Source of the DNA: Natrinema salinisoli
GTDB lineage: Archaea > Halobacteriota > Halobacteria > Halobacteriales > Natrialbaceae
Direction of reading: 5' to 3'
NCBI RefSeq assembly: GCF_020405205.1
Contig: NZ_CP084470.1
Coordinates: 186,001 to 250,000, forward strand
DNA length: 64,000 nucleotides
Below the pieces are notes generated by a model, which saw only the letters and a program-made list of their open reading frames with translations, was not told where the DNA came from and made no database searches. A program made the translations under genes and the position numbers. This document shows, in pieces, positions 38,751 to 45,160 of the stretch. Within the stretch, counting starts at the first letter, position 1. Every line of letters starts with the position of its first letter.

Positions 38751-39407
38751 TCATGATCTGTTCTTCCACTGATTGTCCCCTTCTTGTTCGCGTGGGTCAC
38801 CGATGGCGTCTTTGATTATTTCGCCTTCAGCTCGGTGAAGAACGCCACTGATCACCGATTTGTTGACCTCGAGTTCCTCGGCAAGATCAGTCAAAGAACA
38901 CCCTCGAGGGTTATCGTAATATCCTCGTTTAATTGCGACCGTGAGAATCTCTCGTTGCCGAGCGGTGAGAGAATCGAGAACGTTGTAGCCCTCAGTGATT
39001 GAGAGAATTTCATAGTTGACGTTGCGTTCGTCGAGTGACTCCCACATCGCCGCCATCTTTGACTCTGGCATCACGAATTCGATGAAGAGGTGGCCGTCAC
39101 GAGCGACGACAGGAGTCGTTGGGTGGTATTCAATGTCCTCAGAGACGAAATACCCATTGGGCGGCTGTCCCTCAAGCATCATGACTACTGTATCATCATC
39201 GCTGTGCAACAGTGTGGTCGAACTCGAAAACCAATTCTCGGTTTCCTGAACAAATTCTTCTGGGTGGTCCGTCTGAATCTCCAAAACGCTGGTCACACCA
39301 TTCTCTGAGGGGTAATTCGAGAGAAATCGGATAACTGTATTCGGAAACTTATCAGCGATAGCGACCATGTCCGGCATTGGGCCGACCTTGAGACGTACCC
39401 GTGGCAT
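38751..39407 (-). CDS. Bat-type (HTH_10) transcriptional regulator of the copper/redox cluster
   Basis: A 218-residue protein from ATG 39405-39407. Residues 1-140 form a bacterio-opsin-activator-type ligand domain. LDSLTARQREILTVAIKRGYYDNPRGCSLTDLAEELEVNKSVISGVLHRAEGEII is the HTH_10 domain. A near-palindromic GGTAAACATGTTCACC lies 36-51 bp before its start. The same element recurs before four neighbouring genes, so this protein is a natural candidate for the factor that binds it. Confidence 0.9.
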   Translation of the reverse strand: MPRVRLKVGPMPDMVAIADKFPNTVIRFLSNYPSENGVTSVLEIQTDHPEEFVQETENWFSSSTTLLHSDDDTVVMMLEGQPPNGYFVSEDIEYHPTTPVVARDGHLFIEFVMPESKMAAMWESLDERNVNYEILSITEGYNVLDSLTARQREILTVAIKRGYYDNPRGCSLTDLAEELEVNKSVISGVLHRAEGEIIKDAIGDPREQEGDNQWKNRS

Positions 39408-39442: not shown

Positions 39443-39461
39443 GGTAAACATGTTCACCTCC
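39443..39461. promoter_or_regulatory. AACATGT element A (before the Bat-type gene)
   Basis: GGTAAACATGTTCACC is palindromic apart from one base pair. It lies 36-54 bp upstream of ATG 39407 (minus), just before a TATA-like CATTATC. Confidence 0.6.
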
Positions 39462-39510
39462 ATCCTTAGAATAGCTCTGGAAATTTCAGGGTAACTGGCT
39501 TTGTTCCCGA

Positions 39511-39527
39511 TGCCAACATGTCCACGT
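39511..39527. promoter_or_regulatory. AACATGT element B (before the 39565 membrane gene)
   Basis: GCCAACATGTCCACGTG, 38-54 bp upstream of ATG 39565. Confidence 0.55.
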
Positions 39528-39564
39528 GAATTTTCATCCAGCACACAGCGAAACCTCGTTTGTG

Positions 39565-39999
39565 ATGTATTCAGCACAAGTAGAGAAGAGGGACAACAGA
39601 GACTCCGTTCCGACACACGTTCAATGGGCGACGTACTCCTACCTCGGCGCAGCTGTCCTCCTTACAGCCAGTGTTCTCATCCAAATTTACATCGCCGGAA
39701 TGGCCGTGTTTGTTGATCCGGCCCGATGGAGCAGTCACGTCTCGTTCGGCAATATTCTGCCGGTAGTTCTTCTGATACTGTTCGTCCTCGCGTTCCTCGG
39801 GCGATTACCCCGGATTCACAAGGGACTTCCAATTGTAATCTTTCTCTTGTTCTTCATCCAATTCGCCACCGCCCATCGGTTCGGGTCGCTCGTCGGGGCG
39901 ATTCACCCGGTGAATGGAGTCGTGATATTCTGGTTGTCGACGATCACAGTCCAGCGTGCATGGGCAGAAGTTACGGCTAACAGAGGCGGAGTTCTATGA
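39565..39999 (+). CDS. membrane protein with four predicted helices
   Basis: A 144-residue protein from ATG 39565 (MYSAQVEKRDNRDS). Hydrophobic segments: SYLGAAVLLTASVLIQIYIAGMAVFV, ILPVVLLILFVLAFLGRLP, LPIVIFLLFFIQFATAHRF and VNGVVIFWLSTITVQRAWA. No named family is certain; the layout resembles small haloarchaeal DUF proteins with a conserved His near helix 3. An AACATGT element lies just upstream, tying it to the copper/redox regulon. The longer frame from 39526 overlaps that element and is less likely. Confidence 0.75.
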   Translation: MYSAQVEKRDNRDSVPTHVQWATYSYLGAAVLLTASVLIQIYIAGMAVFVDPARWSSHVSFGNILPVVLLILFVLAFLGRLPRIHKGLPIVIFLLFFIQFATAHRFGSLVGAIHPVNGVVIFWLSTITVQRAWAEVTANRGGVL

Positions 40000-40107
40000 A
40001 AAGTACTCTACCTGAGTCGGAACTCGACGCGTGGAGATCCAATCCTTGGTACCGCGTGTTTGAACCGCGAAACACTGACCAAACGGCAGAAGATCTGCAA
40101 CTCGACT

Positions 40108-40598
40108 ATGAATAAAGGACTTCCCGATCCATCTCTACGCGTCGTTATTCATGTGTTCGGAGCAACAGTAATTGGAGCAAGCTTCGCAGGGTGTCTCGGC
40201 AGTCCTAGTGAGAATAGCGATGAATCAAGGCGTGCTGACGAAACCTACGTTGACGATCCTCCCGACTACGTCGGGTGGTTCGACGACATCGATAATTATC
40301 GTTGGACTGTAGACGAACGTGGACAGGACGAGGTATTCGTCCGTGTCGGTGCAAGGAGCCGAGGAATGGCGTCTGACCCACCGGCGGTGATGATCGCTCT
40401 GGGTACGACTATTGTCTGGGAATGGGCCGGTGACGGTGGAACACACAACGTTGTAGCCGAGAGTGGTGAGTTCGAGTCAGAATACTCTAACTCGAGCGAT
40501 TACGCGTACGAGTATACGTTCGAGGACTCCGGGGTCTTCAAGTACGTCTGCGAACCGCATGGTCAGCGGGAATGAAGGGAGCAATCGTGGTCGAATGA
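40108..40598 (+). pseudogene. halocyanin-like blue copper lipoprotein with a 3' frameshift
   Basis: The frame from ATG 40108 has a lipoprotein signal (VVIHVFGATVIGASFAGC, lipobox Cys29) and a cupredoxin domain: PPAVMIALGTTIVWEWAGDGGTHNVVAE ... GVFKYVCEPHGQRE, then stop at 40575. The copper ligands His (THNV), Cys and His (CEPH) are present, but the axial Met region is lost. One frame over, MKGAIVVE follows at 40572-40598, the normal family ending (G-M-K-G-A-I-V-V-E). Adding one G to the GGG at 40568-40570 restores it. It is therefore a recent single-base lesion or a sequencing error. Confidence 0.8.
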
Positions 40599-40606
40599 TC
40601 TTACTA

Positions 40607-41131
40607 CTACTTGAATTCGGATTCTACTTCGAGTAGCGTCGTCAGTTCCTCCTCAAACTCACGCTCGGTGAGATGCCCGTCCACGTACCGAGTCCGAACC
40701 TCCGTGAGCGACTCTGCCGCCCTCTCTTGGGGCGATCTCGGATCCGGAGGTGTGATTGCCGTTGAGAGACCGATGATACGGATTGTCGAGTATTCCTCTT
40801 CGAATTCTTCGAACCACTTTCCGAGTCGATACCGGCCCTTTCTGACGCCCATAGTCGCAACCGACAAAGTCCATTGTACGAGATACCACGTGAGACTGAG
40901 CACGCAAAATAGTCCTGCCAGAGTGAAGAGAACGATTGCGAGAAGTAGGAGACCGAGGGGATTCACCGGATCCGAGTACGCTATCAGGGTGCTCACGATG
41001 GTGGCAAATCCGAAACAGAGGAGACTAGCTCCGGCGAGGATCACGTATGGATTCCCGGACGGAATTCCGTTTCTACGTATGTTAGATTGTCGCGTCATTT
41101 GTGTACTCTGGCACTTCGAACGGCCGATCAT
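40607..41131 (-). CDS. membrane protein with a SHOCT-like C-terminus
   Basis: A 174-residue protein whose ATG (41129-41131) overlaps the stop of the FAD monooxygenase gene (ATGA), showing coupling. Two transmembrane helices (YVILAGASLLCFGFATIVSTLIAY and LGLLLLAIVLFTLAGLFCVLSLTWYLV) are followed by a cytoplasmic part ending in AAESLTEVRTRYVDGHLTEREFEEELTTLLEVE, the short SHOCT oligomerisation helix pair. ATG 41098 (MTRQSNIRR) is an alternative start. Function unknown. Confidence 0.8.
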   Translation of the reverse strand: MIGRSKCQSTQMTRQSNIRRNGIPSGNPYVILAGASLLCFGFATIVSTLIAYSDPVNPLGLLLLAIVLFTLAGLFCVLSLTWYLVQWTLSVATMGVRKGRYRLGKWFEEFEEEYSTIRIIGLSTAITPPDPRSPQERAAESLTEVRTRYVDGHLTEREFEEELTTLLEVESEFK

Positions 41132-42309
41132 ACTGACTCATTCCAGTCCACCCTGTACGAGTAGATTTCTTCGAAGCTTTCCACACCTCGCTTCAGGAAG
41201 AACGGAAGGACGAGGTCCCGAACTTTCCGAGTGACCAAATTGGAAGGTGCTTTCTGATTCCCAGTCTCCCGAGACATCTCAACGATTCCCTCGACTCGAT
41301 CTCGTCGCAGGGACTCGAACGTCTCGAACGCGTCCGGGACCCCTTCAACGTCCCGTAGGCACTTTGCCAGGACAATTGCGTCCTCCATCGCCAGCGAAGC
41401 CCCCTGACCGACGTGCGGGGACGTCGCGTGAGCGGCATCTCCGATAAGGCAAACCGTCCCCCGATTCCACGTTGGGAGCGACGGCAGGTCGTACACGGGC
41501 CACTTGCCGATTTCTCCATCAGTCGAGCGGATGATTTCAGAGACTTCGTTGTGATCGTTCTTGTGGAGTCGAAGTAACTTCTTTTTCCACTCTGCTTGCG
41601 AGATCGCGTCGAGTGCTGCACGATCTGGAGCCTGCTTCCGTTCGTGGTTCTCGAACCAGTAAATCTCGCCCGTCGGAACCTTCTGGTAACCGAAGAACCC
41701 GTCCACACCGAACGTCATTCTCATGACCCCGTCCGTCGGCGGGATCGAGTCGTTCCTGGTGAACGCGCCTGAATCGATGATTCCCGTATACTCGGGATCC
41801 GGCGCGTTAGGGAGAATCGAGCGACGAGTTTGTGAATGAATACCGTCACAACCGACGAGGAAGTCTCCGTGGGCTTCCGTACCATCGTCGAAATACGCGA
41901 TAGCCATGTCTTCGTGTGGAATTTGGACGTCGGTCAGGCGCTTGCCGAACTTCACGGTGATGCCCTGCTCAACCGCCGCTTCTCGGAGACTCTTGGTCAG
42001 GAGACCTCGCTTGATGAGAACCGTCTCGGAGGGGTTCTCACCGAGCTGTTTCTGTTTGTGGTTCTGGAAGACCAACCGATTAGATTCGTGACCACCTTCG
42101 AGGACTTTCTCCCGGATACCGAGTGTTTCCAGGACGTCCGTTCCGTTTGCAGCGAGGTTGAGGAAGAATCCGGCGTCATCTCGTGGTTCAGGCCGTCCCT
42201 CGTAGATGACGGGAGTGATACCGATCCGCCGGAGATACAGTGCGAGCACTGGTCCCACGACTCCGCATCCGATGATCAGTGCTTTCCGATCGCGAGCAGG
42301 CGCACTCAT
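41128..42309 (-). CDS. FAD-dependent monooxygenase (UbiH/salicylate-hydroxylase type)
   Basis: A 393-residue protein from ATG 42307-42309. The N-terminal FAD-binding Rossmann motif is ALIIGCGVVGPVLALYLRRIGITPVIYEGR. The mid-chain D-G motif is FLVGCDGIHSQTRRSI, and the second FAD motif is VCLIGDAAHATSPHVGQGASLAMEDAIVLAKCL. These place it in the group A flavin monooxygenases (COG0654). The substrate is unknown. It is first in a coupled pair with the SHOCT-like gene. An AACATGT element lies about 135 bp upstream, further than in the other genes. Confidence 0.9.
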   Translation of the reverse strand: MSAPARDRKALIIGCGVVGPVLALYLRRIGITPVIYEGRPEPRDDAGFFLNLAANGTDVLETLGIREKVLEGGHESNRLVFQNHKQKQLGENPSETVLIKRGLLTKSLREAAVEQGITVKFGKRLTDVQIPHEDMAIAYFDDGTEAHGDFLVGCDGIHSQTRRSILPNAPDPEYTGIIDSGAFTRNDSIPPTDGVMRMTFGVDGFFGYQKVPTGEIYWFENHERKQAPDRAALDAISQAEWKKKLLRLHKNDHNEVSEIIRSTDGEIGKWPVYDLPSLPTWNRGTVCLIGDAAHATSPHVGQGASLAMEDAIVLAKCLRDVEGVPDAFETFESLRRDRVEGIVEMSRETGNQKAPSNLVTRKVRDLVLPFFLKRGVESFEEIYSYRVDWNESV

Positions 42310-42440
42310 CGTGAACACCTAGTGTTGGCGAATTCGGTCACTTGGATTTCCACGCCGTGGCCGGTTCCCGCAGCATCTTTACCAAACTTCGATTTTCTGG
42401 TCATCAGAGAATAATTGCATTGGTTCTCGCATCATCATTC

Positions 42441-42460
42441 AGATGAACATGTTGACGAGA
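42441..42460. promoter_or_regulatory. AACATGT element C
   Basis: GATGAACATGTTGACGAGA, between the monooxygenase start and the end of the 42502 gene. It is more distant from a start codon than the other copies. Confidence 0.4.
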
Positions 42461-42501
42461 ACCCATTGGCGATGGAATTCGGAGAAAACTCCTACCCCGA
42501 C

Positions 42502-42912
42502 CTACTCTCCGAATAGGACTGGCAATAACCTTGCGCCGAGGACTCCTGCCCCAACCGTGAGGACAAAGCGGACCAACATCATCGCATCGAGTGCTCCGAA
42601 CGCGAAACCGATGAGGCCAGCGAGGGTGCCCACCGCAACACCGTGAAGTGTTGCTGAGTTGGAATCAACTCGTCGAACGACCCACGCTGCCGTAACTACG
42701 GTCAGCAGGATTGTTACGATTGGGTAGATTTGGGTGCCGGATACGGTATTAAACTGCTGTAAGGATCCAGGGTCGGGCTCTCCTCCAGTTCCGAACGCGA
42801 GGAGGAAAGTATACGCGACAATCGATGCTATGAGTAGCCCGGTCGAGATAACGTGAGGTGCGATTCCACCCACGGCGATCTGTTTCCACTGTAAGTCTGA
42901 TACTGTCGTCAT
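42502..42912 (-). CDS. small membrane protein, four helices
   Basis: A 136-residue protein from ATG 42910-42912 with segments IAPHVISTGLLIASIVAYTFLLAF, GTQIYPIVTILLTVVTAAWVVRRV, LHGVAVGTLAGLIGFAFGALDAM and VRFVLTVGAGVLGARLLPVLF. No named family recognised. AACATGT element D sits 37-56 bp upstream, matching the spacing in the other regulon members. Confidence 0.75.
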   Translation of the reverse strand: MTTVSDLQWKQIAVGGIAPHVISTGLLIASIVAYTFLLAFGTGGEPDPGSLQQFNTVSGTQIYPIVTILLTVVTAAWVVRRVDSNSATLHGVAVGTLAGLIGFAFGALDAMMLVRFVLTVGAGVLGARLLPVLFGE

Positions 42913-42948
42913 CACTCGTTAGGTGGCTTTGCTGGTGAATCAGGATTG

Positions 42949-42968
42949 ACGTATACATGTTCACCCGA
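42949..42968. promoter_or_regulatory. AACATGT element D (before the 42502 membrane gene)
   Basis: On the minus strand CGGGTGAACATGTATACG, ending 37 bp before ATG 42912. Confidence 0.55.
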
Positions 42969-43139
42969 GATTTTGTTAGTTAATGTTGGCGGCCAGCGAA
43001 TCCGGCACAAACGGGCCTCAGAACTCAAATTACGGCATTCAGCTTCGTACTGCGTTGTCCTCTCGTTCCATTACTGGAGAACTCGTTCTCGACTATCGTT
43101 ACAGCATCTCCAGGCTTGGATGGTTGTAGGATCATCAAA

Positions 43140-43158
43140 GGCAACATGTTTACGTGAA
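43140..43158. promoter_or_regulatory. AACATGT element E (before the multicopper oxidase gene)
   Basis: GGCAACATGTTTACGTGAA, 38-56 bp upstream of ATG 43196. Confidence 0.55.
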
Positions 43159-43195: not shown

Positions 43196-44755
43196 ATGAA
43201 GTTCAATCGAAGAGAATTCTCGAAACTCGGATTGATGACCGGTGTCGGATTTGGAATCCCTCTCGGAACGGTTGCAGGACCCGCTGGTCGTCTTGTTGAA
43301 TCCGCAAGTATCACGAGTCCCCAGGTCAAGAAGTTCGAGGTTCCATTACCTGTTCCCCCGGTTCTCGAACCAGTGCGCACCGAAGAGACGACTGACTACT
43401 ACGAAATCACACAGCGAGAGGAGACGGCCGAAATCCTCCCCGGATACGAAACAACGGTATGGGGGTACAATGGAATCTTTCCAGGACCGACTATCGAAGC
43501 CAGAAGAGGCCAGGAAGTCGTCGTCGAACAGCGAAACGAACTTCCCGTTCCTGTTTCCACGCACCTCCACGGCGGGGTGACACCACCTGAGAGTGATGGG
43601 TTCCCCACGGACCTCATCCTCCCGCCCGATCTCTCAACGGACGACCTACCGGGGCATATCTCCGGGACTGTCGCTGGGGTTTCACGCGGCTCCAAGGAGT
43701 ACAGATACCCGAATGAGCAACGGGCAGCCACGCTCTGGTATCACGACCATCGGATGGACTTCACCGGTCCACAGGTCTACAAGGGGCTGGCCGGGTTCTA
43801 CATTATCCGCGACGACGTAGAGGATGAGCTCCCCCTTCCCGAAGGGGAGAAGGAGGTCCCGCTCATGATCGCGGATCGGACCTTCACCGACGACGGTGAG
43901 ATGTACTATCCATCAGTCGATCCATCACTCATGGGCGAGCACGGAGTGCTGGCCTCAACGAGTTTCGGGGAGCACACCGGCGCCTTCGGGGACACGATCC
44001 TCGTCAACGGTGCACCGTGGCCGCGAATGGAGGTTTCAAACACGAAGTACCGATTCCGCATTCTGAACGCGTCGAATGCGCGAACGTATGAACTGGCACT
44101 CGAACCCTCGCCGTCTGAAGGCAGCTCGTTCGTCCAAGTGGGTAGCGATGGCGGCCTGCTTTCGGAGCCGATTCCACACGACAAACTCCTCGTCTCTCCC
44201 GCTGAACGCTTCGATGTCGTCATCGACTTCTCACATTACTCAGTGGGCTCCGAAGTGACCCTCGTTAACCGACGTGGAGAGGGTCGGGTGTCCGATGTAA
44301 TGCGTTTCGAAGTTGTCCGTGAAGAGGAGGAGGAGAGCGATATCCCAAGTCAGCTCGCGCCAAACCTCGACTTCCCGAGTCCTGAGGAAGCGGAAGTCAC
44401 CAGGCAATTCTTTTTCATTGCAGGGATGCTCGGAGGGATGTCAACCATCAACGGAAACGCGTATGACCCAGAACGAATCGATGCAGATCCCCGCCTCGGG
44501 TCTACTGAAATTTGGGAGTTCGATGCTGACCCAGCTCACCCAATTCACATGCATCTCGTTCATTTCAAGGTCATTTCTCGTGATGGTGGCCCACCTGGTC
44601 CCTATGATGCCGGTTGGAAGGACACAGTCTTCCTAGATGGCGGCACCGTTCGAGTGGTTGCCAAGTTCACTCCTTACCGTGGAAAGTACGTCTTCCATTG
44701 CCACAATCTTGAACACGAGGATATGATGATGATGGCCAATTTCGAGGTGATCTGA
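43196..44755 (+). CDS. multicopper oxidase (laccase/CotA-like), Tat-exported
   Basis: A 519-residue protein with a twin-arginine-type N-terminus (MKFNRREFSKLGLMTGVGFGIPLG). All four copper motifs are present: HLHGG (His123, His125), WYHDH (His183, His185), HPIHMH (His448, His451, His453) and FHCHNLEHEDMMMM (His501, Cys502, His503, His507, Met about 512). It oxidises phenolics or metal ions with reduction of O2 to water at the cell surface. A halocyanin-like gene and an FAD monooxygenase are nearby. The downstream membrane gene starts immediately after its stop. Confidence 0.95.
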   Translation: MKFNRREFSKLGLMTGVGFGIPLGTVAGPAGRLVESASITSPQVKKFEVPLPVPPVLEPVRTEETTDYYEITQREETAEILPGYETTVWGYNGIFPGPTIEARRGQEVVVEQRNELPVPVSTHLHGGVTPPESDGFPTDLILPPDLSTDDLPGHISGTVAGVSRGSKEYRYPNEQRAATLWYHDHRMDFTGPQVYKGLAGFYIIRDDVEDELPLPEGEKEVPLMIADRTFTDDGEMYYPSVDPSLMGEHGVLASTSFGEHTGAFGDTILVNGAPWPRMEVSNTKYRFRILNASNARTYELALEPSPSEGSSFVQVGSDGGLLSEPIPHDKLLVSPAERFDVVIDFSHYSVGSEVTLVNRRGEGRVSDVMRFEVVREEEEESDIPSQLAPNLDFPSPEEAEVTRQFFFIAGMLGGMSTINGNAYDPERIDADPRLGSTEIWEFDADPAHPIHMHLVHFKVISRDGGPPGPYDAGWKDTVFLDGGTVRVVAKFTPYRGKYVFHCHNLEHEDMMMMANFEVI

Positions 44756-45160
44756 ATGAGTATCGTAAGAGCGAGTAGCAGCAAATCACTACGGACTGGG
44801 AACACCCCCATTCGATTTACTGGGGCAGCACTCGCCTTAATGTCCCAAGTGATACACCTCTGGATTCTCCCCGGAGAATTCGTGGTTACGCTTGTACCCG
44901 GTCTATTCTTCCTTGTCGTAGGAATCAGTCAGGGGCTGCTTGGCATTAGTTTACTGTTTGGATCGAGGAAATGGGCACTACGTTTGGGAGTCATGCTCAA
45001 CCTCCTCATCGTTACTGTCTGGGGCATTACTCGGATTATAAGCCTTCCTGCAATCACGGGGTCAGCACAGTTTAACATAGGAGTGCTTGGGATCGGGTCA
45101 GTAGCTGTAGAAATTGCTCTAATAGTGATACTCCTGAAATTACACAAAAACAGGAAATGA
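44756..45160 (+). CDS. membrane protein cotranscribed with the multicopper oxidase
   Basis: A 134-residue protein starting at the base after the oxidase stop. Four hydrophobic segments: TGAALALMSQVIHLWIL, VVTLVPGLFFLVVGISQGLLGISLLFG, LGVMLNLLIVTVWGITRIISL and IGVLGIGSVAVEIALIVILLKL. No named family. A role in copper handling, electron transfer or oxidase maturation is suggested only by the operon. Confidence 0.8.
   Translation: MSIVRASSSKSLRTGNTPIRFTGAALALMSQVIHLWILPGEFVVTLVPGLFFLVVGISQGLLGISLLFGSRKWALRLGVMLNLLIVTVWGITRIISLPAITGSAQFNIGVLGIGSVAVEIALIVILLKLHKNRK

Follow-up and report, generated by a model that had tools for sequence, protein, structure and literature searches.

Which protein reads the short element that recurs before the genes of a small copper-enzyme cluster in Natrinema salinisoli, and does it switch these genes on or off? 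The cluster lies in a window of 64,000 nucleotides, the whole stretch of DNA analysed, which sits on a 400-kb contig (secondary replicon). HTH_10 proteins are numerous in haloarchaea, and to our knowledge few of them have a known binding site. The locus offers a complete predicted set of regulator, operators and regulon.

The palindromic element and its promoters

The element was identified as the 14-bp palindrome GTRAACATGTTYAC, present in five copies at the five promoters of the cluster. An earlier note on this DNA had described five copies within 4 kb by the consensus G-nnn-AACATGT-nn-AC. All five were found where it had placed them, and the copies behind the consensus are real; the palindrome, which is seen on both strands, describes them better. 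Operator 1 (39444..39457, minus strand, GTGAACATGTTTAC on that strand) was centred 43 bp upstream of the start (39407) of the gene for an HTH_10 regulator of 218 amino acids (38751..39407, minus strand). Operator 2 (39512..39525, plus strand, GCCAACATGTCCAC) was centred 43-46 bp upstream of the gene for a DUF6220 membrane protein (39565..39999, plus strand), which may start with GTG at 39562 or ATG at 39565. The gene behind it, encoding a halocyanin-like copper protein (40108..40575, plus strand), had no operator of its own. Operator 3 (42443..42456, minus strand, GTCAACATGTTCAT on that strand) preceded a leader ORF of 32 codons (42306..42404, minus strand), followed by an FAD monooxygenase (PF01494; 41128..42309, minus strand) and, probably in the same operon, a membrane protein (40607..41131, minus strand). 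Operator 4 (42951..42964, minus strand, GTGAACATGTATAC on that strand) was centred 42-45 bp upstream of the gene for a 137-aa membrane protein (42502..42915, minus strand; GTG at 42915 or ATG at 42912), which lacked a Pfam match and was conserved in 11 of 12 clusters. Operator 5 (43140..43153, plus strand, GGCAACATGTTTAC) was centred 49 bp upstream of the start (43196) of a multicopper oxidase (43196..44755, plus strand) with four histidine-rich copper-binding motifs visible in its sequence. The abutting membrane protein gene (44756..45160, plus strand) again lacked its own operator.

Two of these genes showed further peculiarities. The 3' end of the halocyanin gene was frameshifted in this copy: the frame shifts after CEPHG, and the conserved GMKGA end with the methionine copper ligand, kept in all five orthologues compared, lies in another frame. 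The gene is either a pseudogene or affected by a sequencing error. Among plasmid records, the closest relatives of the multicopper oxidase after two haloarchaea were found in actinomycetes (50-53%), which suggests transfer between domains. The Streptomyces relatives (about 51%) had different neighbours and gave no functional clue.

The window held eight AACATGT/ACATGTT centres, five of them within 3.7 kb and all of these upstream of genes; the remaining three (792, 34707 and 48858) lay inside listed ORFs. The window was simulated 300 times with a first-order Markov model, and no 4-kb stretch of any simulation contained more than four sites. The distance from centre to start was 42-49 bp for all five copies when the leader ORF is taken as the first gene behind Operator 3, and the near-constant spacing described in the earlier note therefore extends to the fifth. 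Across the whole genome (4.7 Mb on three contigs), AACATGTTNAC gave five matches, four of which (three sites) were in the cluster, and the reversed control pattern gave none. A wider regulon in the same genome was rejected, as the two exact matches outside the cluster both fell within ORFs.

The site before the FAD monooxygenase had been noted as lying about 135 bp from that gene. The distance was close to this (about 140 bp from the ATG at 42309), and the apparent exception in spacing disappeared with the leader ORF, which was missing from the ORF list. It opens with a minus-strand ATG at 42404, 45 bp from the centre of Operator 3, and its TGA overlaps the monooxygenase ATG (ATGA). An ORF of the same length with the same stop-start overlap was present in five other clusters (L066, L069, L072, L158 and L224), and in L068, L070 and L071 the FAD monooxygenase itself begins at this position. 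Operator 3 thus stands at the standard place, with the FAD monooxygenase as second cistron, and a separate rule for this site was dropped. A conserved leader peptide was also rejected. A role in coupling appears likelier than a peptide function because length and overlap are kept in the six clusters and the sequence hardly at all.

Alignment on the site centre revealed a second block 14-16 bp downstream, common to the promoters of each class. It read CATTA, TCATC, TGATG, TGATT or TTGAC in the five classes and was non-canonical as a TATA box, standing where the TATA box of a presumed leaderless transcript would lie. Such a non-canonical core promoter favours, without proving, dependence on an activator.

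Conservation across homologous clusters

Twelve clusters including that of the window, from at least two families, were collected by protein similarity and not by motif. Among the 392 genomes of the order that were searched, six others carried the regulator at 73-89% identity, one of them in two copies, and below this group identity dropped sharply to 39%. Clusters from Halomontanus rarus, Halovivax sp. KZCA124, Halohasta litorea and Halegenticoccus soli were added. Two pairs (L070/L071 and L158/L224) looked near-identical, leaving about ten distinct clusters among the twelve. In the genome with two regulator copies (G295; L069 and L072), much of the cluster was duplicated too, one set accompanying each regulator, and the sets lay on two contigs.

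Clusters of this kind without the element, named beforehand as the case that would speak against it, were looked for, and the outcome did not count against the element. The palindrome was present upstream of 47 of the 48 starts of five gene classes in the twelve clusters, with 42-49 bp from centre to start. Before the regulator gene the centre lay exactly 43 bp from the start codon in 12/12 clusters. The site preceded all 12 copies of the membrane protein gene, 6/6 DUF6220 genes, 7/7 multicopper oxidase genes and 10/11 FAD monooxygenase genes. The sole start without it was that of the FAD monooxygenase in L067, which lies 15 bp behind the membrane-protein gene and probably belongs to its operon. 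The halocyanin gene and the gene behind the oxidase also had no palindrome of their own; the sites thus follow promoters and not genes. Gene order varied among the clusters, and site and spacing remained constant. None of 13 multicopper oxidase homologues at other loci (36-45% identity) had the palindrome. AACATGT/ACATGTT was absent from the fetched locus in 11 of these 13; L007 had a single one roughly 1 kb distant, and the one in L009 lay near the start and was not palindromic.

The HTH_10 regulator as candidate binder

HTH_10 (PF04967) was the only Pfam match of the regulator, with 58.9 bits against a cut-off of 23.1 over residues 147-199; PAS, GAF and BAT (PF15915) gave no match at E 0.01. 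The label 'Bat-type' given to it previously therefore holds for the HTH_10 domain and is imprecise for the rest of the protein, which is a small NarO/DmsR-like HTH_10 protein, with HTH_10 and without PAS and GAF. Its N-terminal half may be a distant version of BAT, some relatives showing BAT matches. An AlphaFold2 model built from 43 sequences (mean pLDDT 83, pTM 0.59) predicted two parts: the N-terminal half has a beta-alpha-beta arrangement similar to ferredoxin/ACT-like domains, and the C-terminal part is an HTH similar to those of sigma region 4 and LuxR/NarL. Structure matches were to ferredoxin/ACT-like domains and sigma-region-4/LuxR HTHs, with middling Z, and no sequence match among solved structures identified the regulator. 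Residues 185 and 188 were placed at the start of the long third (recognition) helix, comprising approximately residues 183-202.

For 83 divergent HTH_10 proteins (<70% identity), the DNA before the gene was scanned for xxRAA-N4-TTYxx, five or more of the seven palindromic pairs being required. Fifty carried such a palindrome at 38-66 bp, compared to a mean of 0.3 in mononucleotide shuffles. With two further searches, xxRAA-N4-TTYxx was found before the own start of 94 of 134 HTH_10 relatives, and 40 showed no clear site. The survey thereby proposes operators for about 90 further HTH_10 proteins, together with a concrete hypothesis linking residues to bases. In one subfamily (L044, L050, L052, L055, L056, L063, L098 and others), GTGAATATATTCAC-type palindromes lay 61-64 bp before the start, in several members directly followed by a good TATA box (CCTTTTTAAG); this arrangement is the same box with a longer leader.

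Half-sites varied together with the recognition helix. GTRAA occurred with Ala, Val or Gly at residue 185, and TCGAA, GCAAA, CCGAA and ACGAA with Thr185. GGGAA was associated with Ala185 and Arg188, and GGAAA with Ser185 and Lys188. Regulators with Thr185 had C at position 2 in 91 of their 92 half-sites, and among the 96 half-sites of the other regulators 80 had T there. Thr185 and C remained associated when the proteins were grouped at 60% identity (7/7 versus 0/12, Fisher 2e-5). The best tree showed five changes of Thr185, two of them forced by well-supported branches; with too few events for a sign test, a phylogenetically independent proof of the code was abandoned. Wherever base 2 differed on the tree, the change went the same way. 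The matching variant sites of related regulators hint at a readable protein-DNA code, which has the standing of a supported hypothesis and not of proof. In its full form, residue 185 would set base 2 (C with Thr, mostly T with Ala/Val/Gly, G with Ser), and base 1 would depend largely on residue 188. For the many HTH_10 paralogues of a haloarchaeal genome, operators and regulons could then be predicted from the protein and rewired by single substitutions; we see the chances of this version as evenly balanced.

Haladaptatus pallidirubidus encoded a 72%-identical oxidase beside a 33%-identical regulator with an Asn-Lys-Ala-Thr helix (GC-reading type), and the site upstream of this oxidase was GGCAACATGTTTGC. 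The sites at this locus lay 108 and 129 bp from annotated starts, making the comparison less clean. On the H. pallidirubidus plasmid (L159, 9001-10551), the multicopper oxidase relative was annotated as two separate ORFs, as if broken.

These observations make it probable that the HTH_10 regulator encoded in the cluster (38751-39407) has the palindrome as its operator and that this protein activates the cluster. The proposal of the earlier note that the local HTH_10 protein is the binder is well supported by the conservation of site and spacing and by the matched variation of helix and site. A regulator dimer would bind the 14-bp palindrome, with one GTRAA half-site read by each recognition helix. 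The core promoter beside it is weak and non-canonical, and the transcript would be leaderless or nearly so. The bound regulator would most likely recruit basal transcription factors, and a signal would be sensed by its ferredoxin/ACT-like N-terminal half. Under this scheme it would drive its own gene and four other units, namely DUF6220-halocyanin, leader ORF-FAD monooxygenase-membrane protein, the 137-aa membrane protein, and multicopper oxidase-membrane protein. If the regulator reads its own palindrome, binding is expected on GTGAACATGTTTAC and not on CCGAACATGTTCGG or GCAAACATGTTTGC.

Three other explanations were weighed. The copies could be a chance or repeat-derived cluster, such as remnants of mobile elements, with no regulatory role, and repeats are plausible on a 400-kb secondary replicon. 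Chance clustering was ruled out by the simulations, none of which placed five sites in 4 kb, and by conservation, and position and spacing were kept in homologous clusters despite rearranged gene order; the probability of this explanation is negligible. The palindrome could also be bound by another HTH_10 paralogue or an unrelated factor, the adjacent regulator gene being merely one of its targets. A first look at the genome gave 52 HTH_10 candidates; dozens of paralogues may be encoded, some of which could read the same site, and paralogues of the Asn-Gln-Ser-Ala and Asn-Pro-Ser-Ala helix types also go with GTGAA half-sites. However, the regulator gene stands beside the sites in every one of the twelve clusters, spread over at least two families, its own gene is preceded by a site at one fixed spacing, and site and helix change together across the family, which makes another binder improbable.

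The sign of regulation is not readable from sequence alone, and repressors commonly autoregulate from a site adjacent to the core promoter. The same regulator could thus act as autorepressor and local silencer, relieved by a ligand. Against this, the site stands before the presumed core promoter and does not cover it, the core promoters lack a good TATA box, as expected under activator dependence, and related boxes of Haloferax mediterranei behaved as activating sites when mutated. Repression is an unlikely reading, though less so than another binder. Promoter layout and the mutants of H. mediterranei point to activation. The palindrome is most probably the operator of an activator that binds as a dimer.

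The description of the regulon as 'copper/redox' fits the gene products, halocyanin and multicopper oxidase, which suggest copper-dependent electron transfer; it describes the genes and not a signal. Other halocyanin/membrane protein/multicopper oxidase operons of H. mediterranei rise under denitrifying conditions (PMC11218638), and oxygen limitation is therefore as plausible a signal as copper.

Comparison with known systems

Bat of Halobacterium salinarum is an activator of bop. As judged from its description, it has HTH_10 in common with the regulator, in which PAS, GAF and BAT were not detected. NarO uses an N-terminal cysteine-rich motif for oxygen sensing; the regulator differs in this feature, as its single cysteine, Cys170, lies within the HTH. 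Both Haloferax volcanii NarO and Halobacterium salinarum DmsR resemble it in having HTH_10 and no PAS or GAF, as described in PMC11218638.

The closest known system is the denitrification box of H. mediterranei. In this species, CGAAYATDKTYG is common to the nirK, nor and nosZ promoters, and the box occurs in 83 promoter regions of the genome (PMC10062603). Replacing the first base of CGAACATGTTCG by T lowered nos promoter activity more than the other mutations did and also reduced nor activity significantly; for the nir promoter the decrease was not significant, and a mutation at the other end of CGAACATGTTCG (Mut12) had no significant effect (PMC10062603). This first base corresponds to half-site position 2, the base covarying with residue 185. 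Both systems have an RAA-N4-TTY core, often with a CATG centre, upstream of start codons, and in the present cluster this core was found at a fixed place. The H. mediterranei box is likewise repeated through an island with an HTH_10 gene, halocyanins and copper enzymes (PMC11218638). The half-sites differ, being xCGAA in the CGAA-N4-TTCG box and GTRAA in the present cluster, where position 2 was T in 38 of 47 sequences counted and not C. The genes also differ: those under the H. mediterranei box serve denitrification, and those considered here form an FAD monooxygenase/multicopper oxidase cluster.

The regulator of the H. mediterranei box has been called undisclosed; the nirK-nor island includes the HTH_10 gene E6P09_00735 (PMC11218638). 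Haloferax larsenii has an HTH_10 protein with an Ala-Lys-Ser-Thr helix, which is encoded in a nirK-like/nor island (L300, pHl5678-2) together with a halocyanin, a nirK-like copper oxidase, a subunit of a nor-like oxidase and a DUF2249 protein. This island held eight CGAA-N4-TTCG boxes, of which seven lay 43-73 bp before gene starts, one before the HTH_10 gene itself, making the H. larsenii protein a candidate for the missing denitrification regulator.
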